Below are positions 1 to 9,013 of a stretch of DNA of 64,000 nt, piece by piece; within the stretch, counting starts at the first letter, position 1; every line of letters starts with the position of its first letter. The position numbers and the translations under genes were made by a program. Source of the stretch: Aurantiochytrium sp. KH105. Its lineage: Eukaryota > Sar > Bigyra > Thraustochytrida > Thraustochytriidae. The stretch lies in assembly GCA_003116975.1 (NCBI GenBank), contig BGKB01000029.1, positions 1 to 64,000 of the forward strand. Reading direction: 5' to 3'. The notes under the pieces were generated by a model. It saw only the letters and a list, made by a program, of their open reading frames with translations. It searched no databases and was not told where the DNA came from.

Positions 1-403
1 TCAATGCAACCAATGCAATCAATGCAATCAATGTCATGCCACACCACAATCATCATGCACAGTCTTGAGCGGAACAACATCGGCCCAGATGGCGCCGTTG
101 GGCTCGGGCAAGGCTTGGGCAAGAACAATTCGCTTACAGAACTGAAGTAAGTTGGTTCGGTTGTGTTTTGCTGCGTTTGATTGGAGGCAAGACTTTGGAT
201 TGGACAACGCAAGAAGGCGGCATGCGTGGATTTCTGTGTGAAGGAAGGCAGGTGGGCGTTCGTGGCGGAGAGCAGAAAGGTGGGAATGCGCCAAGACGAC
301 GGCGACGGCGACATGAGGGTGGACACTGACAGCCATTTCGCGCTCATCAATGAATGCAACCAATGCAATCAATGCCATGCCACACCACAATCATCATGCA
401 CAG
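1..403 (+). repeat. Duplicated intron-LRR exon unit
   Basis: The ~60 bp before each LRR exon (about 1-62 and 350-403) are nearly identical, built from CAATGCAAC/CAATGCAATC motifs followed by the same stretch ending CATCATGCACAG. Each copy is followed directly by an LRR exon and a GTAAGT donor. This is a tandem duplication of an intron-plus-exon module of about 340 bp, the expected way of adding LRRs without breaking frame because the flanking introns share phase 2. Confidence 0.8.
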
Positions 404-3400
404 TCTTCTGTCGAACACGATTGGCTTGGACGGTGAATTTGCTTTAGCGGTGGCAATCCTGACCAACAATGACGTCTTGCGTGCGATGGAGTAAGTTTTT
501 TCTCTTCGTGACGCAGACAACAAGCTTGAGCTTTCAATGTTCTGAATATTGACGCTTTGTACCTTCATCAGTTGTTTACCACGACTCCCATCTCTGTCTT
601 GGACCAAGCTGCTGGGAACGACGAGAGGCGCGGCTCGGTGGAAGCTACTTCGAGACTATCTTTTTGAGAATAATGACGAGGGATGGACCTTGGTCGCGCA
701 TGAACTGGCTGGGACTCTTGCACATATTGCCGCAGCATTTCTTGCCGTTCTCTCCGAATGTGATTTGGAGTCGCGGAGGCTTCTTGGGAAGCCCAAAGTT
801 TGGCTTCTGAAGCCCGAAGATGCGAATGGAAAAGATAATTCCTTGCAGAACGAAGATTCCAATCTTCCATTGATCCATGCATTGTTCGACTGCCACGCGA
901 CCAGAACGGAGTTTTCCCTCCCCGAACGTTTTTGCGATGAAGTCCTTATGAAGTACCTGTCTCTCAAAGATGGACTGCTATTGATGAAGGCTGAAGACGG
1001 CGGTGGTCGAACGGTTCGTTCACTTGCGCTCACAAATAAAAACACCAAGGAGTGGGCTAAAAGGTATGGCACATATCTTGATCGTTACAGTGTCATGGAA
1101 GGTCCTCCAGTCCACGAATCCAAAACATGTGCGGTGCACTACGCGACGGATATCCAAACAAACGAAGCAGTGGCGCTCAAGATCATGCGTAAAAAAGACC
1201 AGTACGATCGCGAGATTGTTGCACGCACAGCTGCAGACGGCGGAGATGCGAATCTTAAAGGCTGTTTGCCGCTTCTCCACCGCAAGGATCCGGCGTTCGC
1301 TGGGCGCTTGGACGAGGAGCTTTGCCTGGTGATGAAAAGAGGTTCGCGTTCGCTTTTCGAAGCCATCAATACGGAGCGATTTGCTGGTCGCGATCTGCGA
1401 AAGATTCGGACGATCGCGCACAAGATTCTTTCGGCAGTCAAAAGTCTGCACGACAGTGGTCGAATTCATGGTGACATCAAGCCACGCAATGTTGTGCGTG
1501 TCGCTGCTTCAAAGCAGCACACATTCTCGGATGAAGACACAGGAGGTCGTCTCGAGGTGCCGCAGGAATGGCGAGACAACGTGACGGGAGAGCGCTCAGA
1601 CGTTACAAGTGACGAAGACTGGCAACTTATCGATTTGGACGCATCGGCGAAGATGGAGGATCTGGTCACTGAAAAGGTGAGCACAGGTTACGCAGCCCCC
1701 GAACTGGCCAAATGGCATTTCCTGCCCAAAGCTAAAAGGGACAAGACGCCCCTGGCTGACCCGGCGATTGATGTTTGGGGCTTTGGCGTGGTGCTTTTCC
1801 AGATGCTCTCGGGCACGAAACTTTTCATGGTCGACGAGTCTGACGACAATCTCGTGACGAATCACGACAAGGTGGAGCTCATGAATTGGCTTGCGCTGGA
1901 CGACGAACGTCTTCGTCGCATCAAGAGTCGTCATGAGACTGATGAGGAGAAGGAGGGAGAGAACGGCGGTGAGATGATTGGGGGTGAAGATAGCGTGAAG
2001 ACAGATGGTCTCGATGCGGATGCATACCAGATCGAGGCCGCGCGCGACTTGGTGCGACTTTGCCTTCGCGGCGATGCGAACGAGCGCATAAAAATAGATC
2101 AAATTCTCAACGAGCATCCGTTCTTTGAGAAGTTTCGCAACCCAAGTCATGAGGAGGAAGAGGGAGACAAGATCATCAAGGCCGCGCACACAACCAGACG
2201 CAGATCCTCTCGTGGTTTCTCTCGCCGTGTGATGAGCCTTCACAGGCACGTAGTCCCAAAACGATTCAGTCTTTTCCGTCGCACGACAAAGCCCCTACTG
2301 GACAGAAGTACAAGGTCAAGTGTGTTTCTCAAAAAACGTGCCCACAACGAACTCATCGAGCTCCCGACATACCACTTTTTCTTGTCGCATATGCAAACGC
2401 AGGCCGCAGGAATTGTCAAGGACCTTGCAGCTGGCCTCGAGCGCCACAGAATGTCATCTTGGATTGATATGAACGCGACTGAGATCCACCTCCAGGGCAT
2501 GCATCGCGGCGTACTTTCGTCTCAGTGCTTTATCATGGTCCTCACCAAGGATGTACTTTTCCGGCCCTACTGTCTTGCCGAACTTCATTTTGCCGTTGAG
2601 TTCTTCGGCCGAACCGAGGATGGGCTGGCGAAGCACATTTTTTTCATTGTCGAAGAAGATACTGGATTTTATCCATGGAATGAGCATGACGCACCATGGC
2701 ATTGTTCTTCCGAGGATCTATTTACGGACGACGACCAGTCGGATCGGGAAGGAGCTCGCGATGGCAAAGCTTCCAGCCATAGCACAGGCTTAAGCAAGCT
2801 GGGCGCATGCCAGTTCTGGTCAAAGAGACAAGACGATGCGCATTCTTTTCAAGGTGGGTTGCAGCATTCTGGCGGCAACGAAACAAATGCAGCAACACCT
2901 GAATCCAGACTTGGGACTTTGCACGATTTATTGGACAAGCTAGAATTACAGAACTGGGAAGGAGTTCCTGTGCGGCCACAACAGATACTGGACAATGCGA
3001 AAATGGCTCTGTCAAAATGCAGACGTATCCCATATCGCCGTCGTCAGTTCGAAGAAGATGCAATGCTGCGTGTTCTGGCAGAGAGCGCAGGCTTTCAAGC
3101 CAGCCCACGTCCCATGGACAGATTTGCGTCAAAGAATGTGGATCATCTTCAACTCGAAGTGGTGGGCAAAAGAATGTCCAAGGCAGTCAATAAGATTAGA
3201 CTCAAGCTCGATGAACAACTCAGGCGTCCTGAGGAGAGTGGCAAACCTGACGTTGTCGTGGTCGTACTTGAGAACGATTGCTGGGGCGATGTCCAAACGT
3301 TTTGGGAGAGCCTACATGAAGAAGGGGGAGATTGTGAAGAAATGGAAGTTCCTCTGCTTGCAGTTGCGGTCTGCGGTACTGACGAGGAGTGGGATTTCAA

Positions 3401-3596
3401 GTACAAGAATAAGTTCGAAAACTCTGCACTCCGGACAACACTCTTTGATCGCCTCGAGGTCCTCAAGTGGCGGGATGCTCCTGGAGCCAAAAATCGGGAT
3501 CTTCCAAATTACTCTGTGGAGCACGAGGAACCAGCGCTCATTAGGGAGCTTTGCTCGCGCGCGAAAAGGCTGCAGCGGTCGTCATCCAGCACTTGA
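63..3596 (+). CDS. LRR-protein kinase-TIR protein, 5' end outside window
   Basis: Probable intracellular receptor or signalling protein. Three exons are visible: 63-146, 404-490 and 572-3596. The first two each encode one ribonuclease-inhibitor-type LRR (28 and 29 residues, e.g. LERNNIGPDGAVGLGQGLG). Both introns are phase 2 with GTAAGT donors (147, 491) and CAG acceptors, and the reading frame continues across all three exons. The main exon has no ATG before about 948, which also argues that translation begins upstream. A kinase domain spans about 1084-2130, with ALKIM (lysine), HGDIKPRN catalytic loop (HGD for HRD), LIDLDAS in place of DFG, and APE. A TIR domain spans about 2365-2710; its CLAEL motif places a glutamate where plant TIR NADases have the catalytic one. 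The C-terminal ~290 residues are unassigned. Domain order LRR-kinase-TIR is seen directly; an immune role is inference. Confidence 0.85.
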
Positions 3597-6601: not shown

Positions 6602-8482
6602 CTAGTCGGCGAATTTGCCCTCATCCTCTTCTGCATCAACCTCATCAAGGTTTTGCGTAGCGAGACGGTATCCTGCCACGCCAGAGAGACGTCTTGATCC
6701 ACGACCCGTGCGGTATTTGCGAATGACACCCTTTGTGCGAATCGCTGGCGGCTCCCAAGCGTCAGCTGAAACATCAACATTGACCTTGCGACCTTTGCTC
6801 GTCACCTCTTGACGAGACACATAGGGAATGACCGAGTTGTAGTGGTTGTTGCCGTGGAAGGAAATGCGAATCGGCAGATAGGGACCCATCTTGCTGTCCG
6901 AGGGAAGGTCGCCTTCAAAGTGCAGCTTGAGTGGCTCCGTATTGCTTCCAAGGCCAGTAGCGGCGTAAATTTCGACAGGTCGATCGTAGAGCTCCTCCAT
7001 GGCACGAATCTCCGGATCGTCGCCCCAAACCTTGAGTTGGCGCTTGTTCGCGACGTAGTCGTCAAATTGGTCGGAACCGAGCAGTGGCGCGAAGCGCTCG
7101 CGGTTCTTTTCCAGGTAGTCGCAGCAATCCGAGCGGACAATATCGTGTCGCTCTGAATCCCCGTAGACCTGGTGTGCGACGGCCCGGAAAAGGCAATTGC
7201 CATCAGGTTCCACGCTGTACACGGTCAGCTCGCGATCCTTTTGCAAGTTCTTCAAGAAGACGCCGTCGAGTCCCGCAGATGATTCAAGACCCTTCTCGGT
7301 GTGGCTGCCGAAAGGAGCGAGGCGGTCTGCCTGCTCGAGTACGTGGAACCAGGCGTCAAAGGCCTTCGACCAACCCACAAAGGTAACGCGGATAAAGTAC
7401 GGACCTGAAAGCGCAACAATCTGACACTTGCGCCACTTTTTGCGAATGCCGTTGCCCTTTTTGCTGGGAAAGTGGTCTTCTACATCAAGAACGTCGTCGA
7501 CTGCATAGGAATGGTGCACAATGTGCGAAGAAGACATGGTCTCATACGCTGAAAAGGTGTCTCCGTCATCCAGATCCACCTCCCCCGTTTCCGGGTATTC
7601 TCGAGGGATGGAGTCCACGTCAAGATAACGAACCATCACTCGGCCATTATCCGTCGCGCCGAGGACCATGGCGGGCCGCCAACGCCAGCCACGTTGCGGA
7701 GGTGGCGGAAAGGATCCCGGTGCATGACCAGCAGAGGCCCCGAAGTGTCCATAACTCTCCACTAGGGGAACCGACTTGTCCAAGACATCCGTGAACTGCA
7801 CCATGCCGTCGTCTTCAACGGCCTCGCCCACGGCCGACTGCATGAGGGCCATATCGTCGTCATTGAGGGCCAGGGCGCCGTTCGCAGACTGAAGAGGAAG
7901 AGGAACAGAAGATGCCACGGGCGCAGGCGCGGGTTTCTTTGAAGATCCTTTGTCGTTATCGTCGTCGCCGTCGTCGTCGTCGTCGTAGTCGGGGACGGCA
8001 GTGGCGAGCCCAAGTTCTTCATCGTTGTCAGCGTGGCGCCCGGCCACAGCCACAGAGCGCGCTACAACCACGCCACTGGATCGCCTTTTCGATTTTGGGC
8101 GAGCGCGCGCCTTGGCTCGGGCCTCTTCAAGGGCTTCAGCCTCGCGTTCCGACTTGAGTTGGGCCGCGTACTGCTGCTTGGACTGCGCGCGAGATAGCTC
8201 CGGTTCGGGCTCCAGACGTCGTCCCTGCTGTTGATTTTGTTGTGGTTTTTGGTGTTGTCGACTCACGCCTGTATATTGCCCTCGGGCAGCCAGATAAGAC
8301 TTGGCGTCCTTGCGCGCGATTGGCACGAGAAACTCTTGGTCGTCCACAACGGCCTGCACCGAGACGGTGCCCTTTTTGGGATCGACGCTCTCCACAACAC
8401 CCGGGGCCCACATGTTGTACGCGGAGACGAATACGTCCACCACCTCGCCCGCCAGAGGCAGCTTTCCTGACCCGTTGCCCAT
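6602..8482 (-). CDS. OTUD5-like OTU deubiquitinase with Tudor-like domains
   Basis: Predicted cysteine protease that removes ubiquitin from substrates. The 626-residue protein starts MGNGSGK. The OTU domain lies at about residues 420-545: EPDGNCLFRAVAHQVYGD holds the catalytic Asp and Cys, and HGNNHYNSV the catalytic His. These flanks and the RPVEIYAATG segment match the OTUD5 (DUBA) subfamily. Three short barrel-like segments precede it: residues about 10-70, 280-320 and 365-405 (WRKCQIVALSGPYFIRVTFVGW, then FDAWFHV...LAPFGSHT), the last with the pattern of Tudor-knot/chromo-barrel domains. Low-complexity acidic (DYDDDDDGDDDNDKG) and Pro-rich linkers separate them. The reading frame is open about 450 bp further upstream without ATG, so the start at MGNG is favoured. 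Divergent from the FANCE-like gene. Confidence 0.88.
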   Translation of the reverse strand: MGNGSGKLPLAGEVVDVFVSAYNMWAPGVVESVDPKKGTVSVQAVVDDQEFLVPIARKDAKSYLAARGQYTGVSRQHQKPQQNQQQGRRLEPEPELSRAQSKQQYAAQLKSEREAEALEEARAKARARPKSKRRSSGVVVARSVAVAGRHADNDEELGLATAVPDYDDDDDGDDDNDKGSSKKPAPAPVASSVPLPLQSANGALALNDDDMALMQSAVGEAVEDDGMVQFTDVLDKSVPLVESYGHFGASAGHAPGSFPPPPQRGWRWRPAMVLGATDNGRVMVRYLDVDSIPREYPETGEVDLDDGDTFSAYETMSSSHIVHHSYAVDDVLDVEDHFPSKKGNGIRKKWRKCQIVALSGPYFIRVTFVGWSKAFDAWFHVLEQADRLAPFGSHTEKGLESSAGLDGVFLKNLQKDRELTVYSVEPDGNCLFRAVAHQVYGDSERHDIVRSDCCDYLEKNRERFAPLLGSDQFDDYVANKRQLKVWGDDPEIRAMEELYDRPVEIYAATGLGSNTEPLKLHFEGDLPSDSKMGPYLPIRISFHGNNHYNSVIPYVSRQEVTSKGRKVNVDVSADAWEPPAIRTKGVIRKYRTGRGSRRLSGVAGYRLATQNLDEVDAEEDEGKFAD

Positions 8483-9013
8483 CCTGGCTCTGTCCTGGAC
8501 ACCCCCCTCGCTGCGCCGTCGCGACGCGAGACGCTCGGGGGCTTGCCCTCGCTTGGGTTCCGCAGGCACGTGTCGGCGCGATGCCTGTTTGCCTGCAGTG
8601 TCTGTTTGTCTACGCTGGATTCCTGCGGCGCGTCTGTCTGTATATGTACGTACGTATGTGCGCCGACGAGGCGACGCCGCGTGAGCGACGCCGTGCAGGC
8701 GTGCAGCCAGCCAACCAGCTGCCGCGCGGCCACCGCCGCGGTCTGCGCCGCGTGCTCTCGCCGGCCGCACCCGCTTCGCGCCGCGCCGCTCGGCTGCGTG
8801 CGCTCTGCGCGTCCAGGATTTGCCCTTCTTTCTCACCCTCTCTCTCCCTCCCTCGCTCTCCCCCGCTCGCAGCGGCCTCATACGCCCTGATAAGTAACCA
8901 AAAGGAACAGAGACACACGAAGGTAGGTACACACGCTGTGCGCGCGGGGACCCCTTCCTCTCCTATCCTCTCCTTGCTGGGGCGACTCGCCACCGCGATG
9001 TCGAAAAGCGAGG
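8483..9013. promoter_or_regulatory. Shared divergent promoter region
   Basis: About 530 bp between the OTU deubiquitinase (minus) and the FANCE-like gene (plus), so both must be driven from here. The DNA is pyrimidine-rich on the plus strand near 8820-8870 (CTCTC/CCCTC runs). A short upstream frame begins at ATG 8998, ends TGA 9073-9075, and overlaps the start of the plus-strand gene. Confidence 0.5.

Follow-up and report, generated by a model that had tools for sequence, protein, structure and literature searches.

Arrays of interchangeable leucine-rich repeat exons in a family of LRR-kinase-TIR genes of Aurantiochytrium sp. KH105

In choanoflagellates, proteins termed 'Kinase TLRs' consist of leucine-rich repeats (LRRs), a transmembrane (TM) segment, a kinase and a TIR domain, and 'Kinase TIRs' consist of a kinase and a TIR domain without the TM segment (Richter et al. 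2018, PMC6040629). Within that paper's own data set both were called unique to choanoflagellates (PMC6040629). In brown algae, ROCO genes carry 72-bp phase-2 exons that each encode one LRR, and exon shuffling, alternative splicing and positive selection on the concave side of the repeats have been described for them (Teng et al. 2024, PMC11378527). Here we describe a gene at the start of contig BGKB01000029.1 (contig C29 of our numbering) of the thraustochytrid Aurantiochytrium sp. KH105, where a window of 64,000 nucleotides, positions 1 to 64,000 of the contig, was analysed. The gene belongs to a family that encodes LRRs, a kinase and a TIR domain in one protein, and the family with its unusual LRR exon library is well supported. 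The main feature, which goes beyond a preliminary description of this DNA, is long arrays of interchangeable LRR exons. The set of domains has a precedent in choanoflagellates and the layout of the exons one in brown algae; as far as we have searched, their combination, the lineage and the scale of the arrays are new.

The order LRR-kinase-TIR in one protein is that of the choanoflagellate Kinase TLRs (PMC6040629), and the preliminary description therefore went too far in calling the architecture undescribed. Kinase TLRs have a TM segment, and the passages of that paper that describe them do not mention LRR exon arrays (PMC6040629). With Kinase TIRs the window open reading frame (ORF) shares kinase and TIR together, a likeness of domain content and not of shown ancestry. 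As in the brown-algal LRR-ROCO genes, which are likewise candidate immune receptors with exon shuffling, each LRR lies in its own phase-2 exon, but the exons here are of 84 nt (28 amino acids, aa) instead of 72 bp (23 aa), kinase-TIR takes the place of ROC-COR, and the gene on contig C9 has 57 LRR exons and a terminal one compared to 16 in the brown-algal example gene (PMC11378527). Plant TIR-NB-LRR proteins also have TIR and LRR in one protein, and the TIR profile of the present family matches RUN1, ROQ1, L6 and RPP1; unlike in these, the window ORF has a kinase and no NB-ARC, and the LRRs are N-terminal and the TIR C-terminal. The bacterial NADase TIRs AbTIR and Cat1 are among the best matches of the TIR profile, and the TIR glutamate aligns with that of AbTIR, but they are without the LRR-kinase-TIR receptor architecture. 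NB-ARC, NACHT and ROC were not found in the window ORF at E values up to 10, nor was an NB-ARC or NACHT switch in the paralogues L041 and L043 at E up to 1, and the ROC-COR tandem that is absent from the window ORF was found in other TIR proteins of the same genome. The term 'NLR-like receptor' in the preliminary description is an analogy only, because a search of the ORF gave no nucleotide-binding switch. In the open-access literature no paper was found for Labyrinthulomycetes with a TIR domain, and among the matches listed no title or start of an abstract dealt with kinase-TIR proteins with LRR exon arrays, which is not proof of absence; a transcriptome paper on Thraustochytrium aureum, in the part of its text that was available, touches on LRR proteins in passing only (PMC8917795). 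No relatives were found in viral contigs by a search that detects close relatives only.

LRR, kinase and TIR domains in one polypeptide

When the genome (76 Mb, 367 contigs; L and C numbers denote loci and contigs) was searched, four paralogues were found that have LRR, kinase and TIR in a single intron-free frame, namely the near-identical pair L040 and L041 with 1313 aa and the near-identical pair L042 and L043 with 1570 aa. Pfam was run on one member of each pair. All three of LRR_6, Pkinase and TIR_2 exceeded their cut-offs in the one frame of L041; in L043, LRR_6 and Pkinase did so, and the printed score of TIR_2, 28, equals its printed cut-off. Since these four paralogues carry all three domains without introns, the fusion is independent of any splicing model, and the earlier statement that the three domains belong to one protein is borne out. 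Kinase and TIR share one open frame at 21 loci, the window included, with frames of 934 to 1570 aa; this count was made by eye from the positions and open-frame lengths of the kinase and TIR parts. At C47 and C33 the two parts report different frame lengths, C116 is broken into two frames, C215, C171, C15 and C95 hold partial kinase-TIR loci or stops, and C182 and C96 have a kinase part for which no TIR match was listed. Several kinase-TIR loci resemble allelic pairs, and the haploid gene number may be lower. The degenerate or partial kinase-TIR loci L045, L046, C215 and C15, in which stops are present or parts are absent, suggest birth and death of genes.

In the window, positions 63-3596 of the plus strand are the 3' end of a gene, with two one-LRR exons followed by one large kinase/TIR exon. 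It is without its upstream exons because contig C29 begins here, and the earlier LRR exons lie off the contig. The first exon present, of 84 nt (LERNNIGPDGAVGLGQGLGKNNSLTEL, 63-146), is in phase 2 at both ends, has AG/GT borders and an open frame and matches the cassette pattern used below. It is followed by a phase-2 intron (147-403), by the 87-nt terminal LRR exon that adjoins the kinase exon (404-490), by a second phase-2 intron (491-571) and by the large last exon (572-3596; ORF 546-3596), which encodes a linker, the kinase, the TIR domain and a C-terminal region and ends in a TGA stop. Both introns are GT-AG (GTAAGT...CAG) and the spliced frame is open throughout, so that the exon coordinates of the preliminary description proved right. 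All nine genes examined, the window included, have an LRR exon of 87 nt at this place, and a junction homologous to the LRR-kinase junction of the window was read in L055 and L051. On the ORF (546-3593) the Pfam domains Pkinase (E 2.7e-21, ORF residues 196-527, positions 1131-2126) and TIR_2 (E 9.4e-8, ORF residues 611-703, positions 2376-2654) were both above their curated cut-offs. LRR_6 in the first 200 aa of the spliced product (E 7e-4, 19.9 bits) was below its cut-off of 23.4, a score that rests on just the two repeats that are present on the contig.

Downstream of the TIR core there is a variable insert followed by a conserved IPYRRR segment (2655-3074), in which YRRR is invariant in 12 of 12 sequences, and then a C-terminal region (3075-3593) that is conserved in the family in an alignment of 12 sequences; against PDB at E up to 10 its sole match was at E 0.55. 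An alternating pattern in a low-confidence model had raised the idea that this region is a second TIR, and the idea was dropped when hhalign gave a probability of 4.6% against the TIR alignment.

Arrays of one-repeat LRR exons and their variation

An exon search that accepts only open-frame segments with LRR residues between AG and GT was applied to 13 stretches, namely window 1-700 and 12 loci, 95 kb altogether. The sense strand gave 107 raw candidates, whereas the antisense strand of the same stretches and both strands of window 5001-64000 gave none. A total of 105 LRR exons were listed, spread over 11 of the 13 stretches, 103 of 84 nt and two of 87 nt, and the two stretches without LRR exons are the degenerate loci L045 and L046. 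Beyond the window, tandem arrays of 84-nt exons, each in phase 2 at both ends and encoding a single LRR, were found in 10 of the 12 stretches, with the 87-nt terminal exon last. That the listed exons have splice sites and an open frame is no evidence by itself; because the exon search itself requires them, a core pattern without frame or splice demand was added, and of its 65 matches in the 13 stretches 57 fall within listed exons and eight at the place of the terminal exon. The gene on contig C9, of about 24 kb, has 57 listed LRR exons, all of 84 nt and encoding 54 distinct peptides, plus an 87-nt terminal exon; 11 of these 57 are also counted among the 105. Genome-wide, the cassette pattern had 314 matches, with positions listed for about the first 100 of them, and its reversed control had none. 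Where the gene layout was read by eye (L039, L044, L050, L051 and C9), a recurring first LRR group was followed by the array and then by the terminal exon adjoining the kinase exon. Contig C57 begins, and contig C300 ends, inside an LRR exon array.

Since the array exons are of 84 nt and symmetric in phase 2, the reading frame survives gain, loss or recombination of repeats and, if splicing varies, their skipping, and the repertoire could thereby change fast. Neighbouring cassettes of L049 (1393-1476 and 1724-1807) encode identical LRR peptides, and in C9 a unit of two cassettes is repeated (114570 and 113898; 114236 and 113564) with identical LRR peptides and flanking introns; we regard these as signs of recent unequal exchange. 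LRR cassettes may also serve several effectors, because on C44 an array precedes a frame that encodes ankyrin-like repeats together with a different kinase (Pkinase 4e-12; L058 133-2460, which is C44:5172-7499, and C44:1417-5046). By position only, the cassette pattern is also upstream of some COR-A + TIR genes (e.g. C16:576772 and C41:100875).

The peptides of these exons vary at particular places. Entropy over 45 distinct peptides peaked at residues 2, 3 and 5 and was elevated at residues 8, 9, 22, 25 and 26, and the leucine/glycine skeleton of the same peptides is nearly fixed. The peptides come from 47 'young' exons picked by core motifs, a set that takes in the older N-terminal exons L039 1073, L044 4352 and L050 1398 and omits some array exons. 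From the LxxLxLxxN consensus we take residues 2, 3, 25 and 26 to be on the concave face and residues 5, 8, 9 and 22 to be beside it or in loops, and the hypervariability of exposed positions fits the receptor role that was proposed in the preliminary description. At the nucleotide level, in the 46 of the 47 exons that have full flanks (eight stretches), the mean pairwise difference at the first two positions of codons 2, 3 and 5 was 0.54 compared to 0.18-0.19 in the flanking introns and 0.13 in most other codons, and it was still 0.47 in the 31 pairs whose introns are less than 5% different. In C9, where 53 of the 57 exons were compared (the first four exons of the gene were left out, and the pairs are not independent), the nonsynonymous (pN) and synonymous (pS) differences at codons 2, 3 and 5 were 0.47 and 0.49, the introns differed by 0.16, and in the core pN was 0.064 and pS 0.145. 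In 14 disjoint C9 pairs with introns less than 10% different pN was 0.375 against an intron difference of 0.057; three of these pairs have identical peptides and two of the three also have identical introns.

Diversifying selection by substitution alone was set aside as the cause, as synonymous differences at codons 2, 3 and 5 match the nonsynonymous ones, and for the same reason no plain dN/dS claim is made. The high pS suggests that short blocks were exchanged and that point substitution was not the only process, and block exchange together with selection, or introns that were homogenised by conversion, explain the high pS and pN better. When distance matrices of exon blocks and the two flanking introns were compared in C9 they were nearly uncorrelated (r -0.04 to 0.13). 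As controls, odd and even columns within a 60-column intron block gave r of 0.11 to 0.62, with p<0.01 in four of five blocks, and comparisons between 40-column intron blocks gave r of -0.27 to 0.26, some of them also with p<0.05. Some short-range linkage thus exists in the C9 cassettes and decays with distance. In a test of moderate power, this suggests to us that cassettes frequently recombine or undergo gene conversion with one another, under selection for different surfaces.

Kinase, TIR domain and possible function

The kinase has the residues of an active enzyme. The beta3 Lys (1179-1181 in the window) is present in all 13 rows of the alignment that have residues there (L039 is gapped), and the catalytic-loop Asp, the Asn (1488-1490) and the metal-binding Asp of the DLD/DMD motif (DLD Asp 1632-1634) are present in 14 of 14. 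The HGD motif (Gly/Asp 1470-1475) was found in 12 of the 14 rows and HAD in the other two (L040 and L041), so that the unusual HGD and DLD motifs first seen in the window are real and conserved. With Gly or Ala where RD kinases have Arg, this is by its sequence a non-RD kinase, and non-RD kinases are common among plant immune receptors. An assignment to one kinase family was not made, as the PDB matches spread over CLK, DYRK, HIPK, MAPK, TTK and others. The best PADLOC match of the window ORF was the MADS6 (mad6) kinase model at 2.8e-24; since the PADLOC library is defence-only and thereby biased, this is ordinary kinase homology and was given no weight as a sign of defence.

From the 38 TIR fragments of the genome, 17 domains were combined into a profile, which matched the PDB structures of AbTIR, Cat1, RUN1, RPV1, ROQ1, L6, RPP1, SARM1 and TLRs, and a single-sequence PDB search with the TIR part of the window gave no match up to E 10. 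The glutamate of the window TIR (2580-2582), which lies in the motif CLAEL, aligns with the Glu of the AbTIR motif YELDG at chain position 78 of 7uwg_A, a position that we take to be E208 on the assumption that three tag residues precede residue 134. This Glu is kept in 16 of the 17 aligned TIR domains. The catalytic residue of AbTIR is E208 (PMC10022894), and by alignment the window TIR has a catalytic-type glutamate, as had been proposed for it. In L007 (1522-1881) and L008 (2290-2649) the TIR domain has Gly for this Glu and is predicted to be inactive.

The explanation that we consider the best, and to which we would give about an even chance, is that the protein is a pattern-recognition protein, probably cytosolic, with a variable LRR part, a gating kinase, a NAD-cleaving TIR and a frame-safe exon repertoire. 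A solenoid of ribonuclease-inhibitor-type (RI-type) LRRs, built from many one-repeat exons and variable at its exposed positions, would bind a microbial, viral or non-self ligand, and the binding would bring protomers together. The non-RD kinase adjoining the LRRs would then phosphorylate partners or itself and so gate the system, and the TIR domains would associate and cleave NAD, giving a signal or cell death. Repeats of the array would be gained, lost, recombined or skipped in splicing with the frame kept. As to location, inspection by eye shows no signal-like start in the intron-free L041 and L043, in which the hydropathy (Kyte-Doolittle, KD) of no stretch exceeds 1.45, the N-terminal frame of C9 is acidic and not signal-like by eye, and a cytosolic rather than a membrane-bound protein is favoured on these features.

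Several observations weigh against this explanation. The TIR Glu is replaced by Gly in one lineage (L007, L008 and L051), from which it follows that catalysis is not essential for every member of the family, and the frequency of this Glu does not always track NADase activity, so that Glu alone is no proof of it (PMC7075850). An AlphaFold model of the TIR and C-terminal part of the window protein (405 aa, made without an alignment) had a pLDDT of 34.5 and was not used. A hydrophobic stretch lies between LRR and kinase, with a KD of 1.65 in the window and 1.83 in L049, and would be compatible with a membrane anchor. The array of C9 has three gaps of more than 400 nt (486, 497 and 1649 nt) without a listed exon. 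Finally, block A (codons 2, 3 and 5) and block B (codons 8 and 9) of the C9 exons are weakly linked, with the highest correlation of all (r 0.13, p 0.01), in a linkage test whose power is limited to moderate.

The possibility that the TIR is a scaffold and not a NADase, with a structural Glu and with the kinase as the signalling output as in animal TLR pathways, is a doubtful one but has to be weighed seriously. The Gly lineage would be explained by it, as would the kinase, whose K, D, N and D are kept in every covered row; the Glu in nearly all of the aligned TIRs argues for cleavage of NAD instead, and the best PDB matches of the profile include proven NADases such as AbTIR.

It is unlikely that the protein is a membrane receptor like the Kinase TLRs, in which the LRRs would face outward, a TM helix would precede the kinase and the kinase-TIR part would lie in the cytosol, for the sensing of bacteria or prey. 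Such a receptor would have the domain order that is found here (PMC6040629). Of the seven array-type genes covered, six, the window among them, indeed share the position of a hydrophobic stretch with a KD of 1.08 to 1.83, and in L052 the peak is elsewhere, but the aligned stretch in L040-L043 is more polar, with the alignment there uncertain, and the acidic start of C9 does not look like a signal. RI-type LRRs are, moreover, usually intracellular.

Rather improbable, in our judgement, is self/non-self recognition of a mating or fusion type instead of immunity, in which the variable LRR face would tell kin and the kinase-TIR part would kill incompatible partners, a role that the high variability and the many loci would suit equally well. 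It is highly improbable that the LRR exons form a satellite-like repeat without activity and that transcription starts inside the kinase exon: a tandem period near 341 nt in several arrays and contigs that end inside arrays would fit it, but all 65 core-pattern matches lie in listed exons or at the terminal-exon place, the core codons are constrained, LRR-kinase-TIR paralogues exist without introns and the LRR-kinase junction is homologous between genes.

Genome setting and implications

The genome is rich in TIR and ROCO domains and poor in NB-ARC. There were 258 TIR_2 candidates genome-wide, of which 150 were scored and all 150 were above cut-off, and 116 of 124 COR-A matches were above cut-off. 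NB-ARC had 42 candidates and two matches genome-wide (NACHT was not searched genome-wide). When six other TIR frames were scanned as far as their loci reach, four were COR-A + TIR (one of them also with Roc), one had ankyrin repeats + TIR and one was TIR only, and the TIR partners in the frames scanned are thus kinase, ROCO or ankyrin modules. Elsewhere in the window, on the minus strand at 6605-8962, a long frame has an OTU-like cysteine protease domain (3.2e-16). In the mitochondrial cox1 frame (L053, contig C366) TTG occurs 29 times and CTA 14 times, and TTA occurs only twice, at codons 532-533 of 538 and so close to the end of the open frame. This suggests that TTA is a stop in the cox1 frame of C366. 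TTA is a stop in the Thraustochytrium mitochondrial code (table 23), and the codon usage thus fits a labyrinthulomycete.

To our knowledge, the immune receptors of unicellular eukaryotes are poorly known. A wider and distinctly tentative proposal is that this unicellular stramenopile has a repertoire-generating immune system, in which libraries of LRR exons, recombination over tens of bases and possibly splicing would feed a kinase-gated, NAD-cleaving TIR. If true, this would be an independent analogue of the diversity of the lamprey variable lymphocyte receptors (VLR) or of insect Dscam, wired to a TIR cell-death effector without the NLR switch. If confirmed, it would mean that variable-receptor repertoires arose in protists and that kinase-TIR receptors extend from choanoflagellates to stramenopiles, and the speed of array change between strains would become directly testable.

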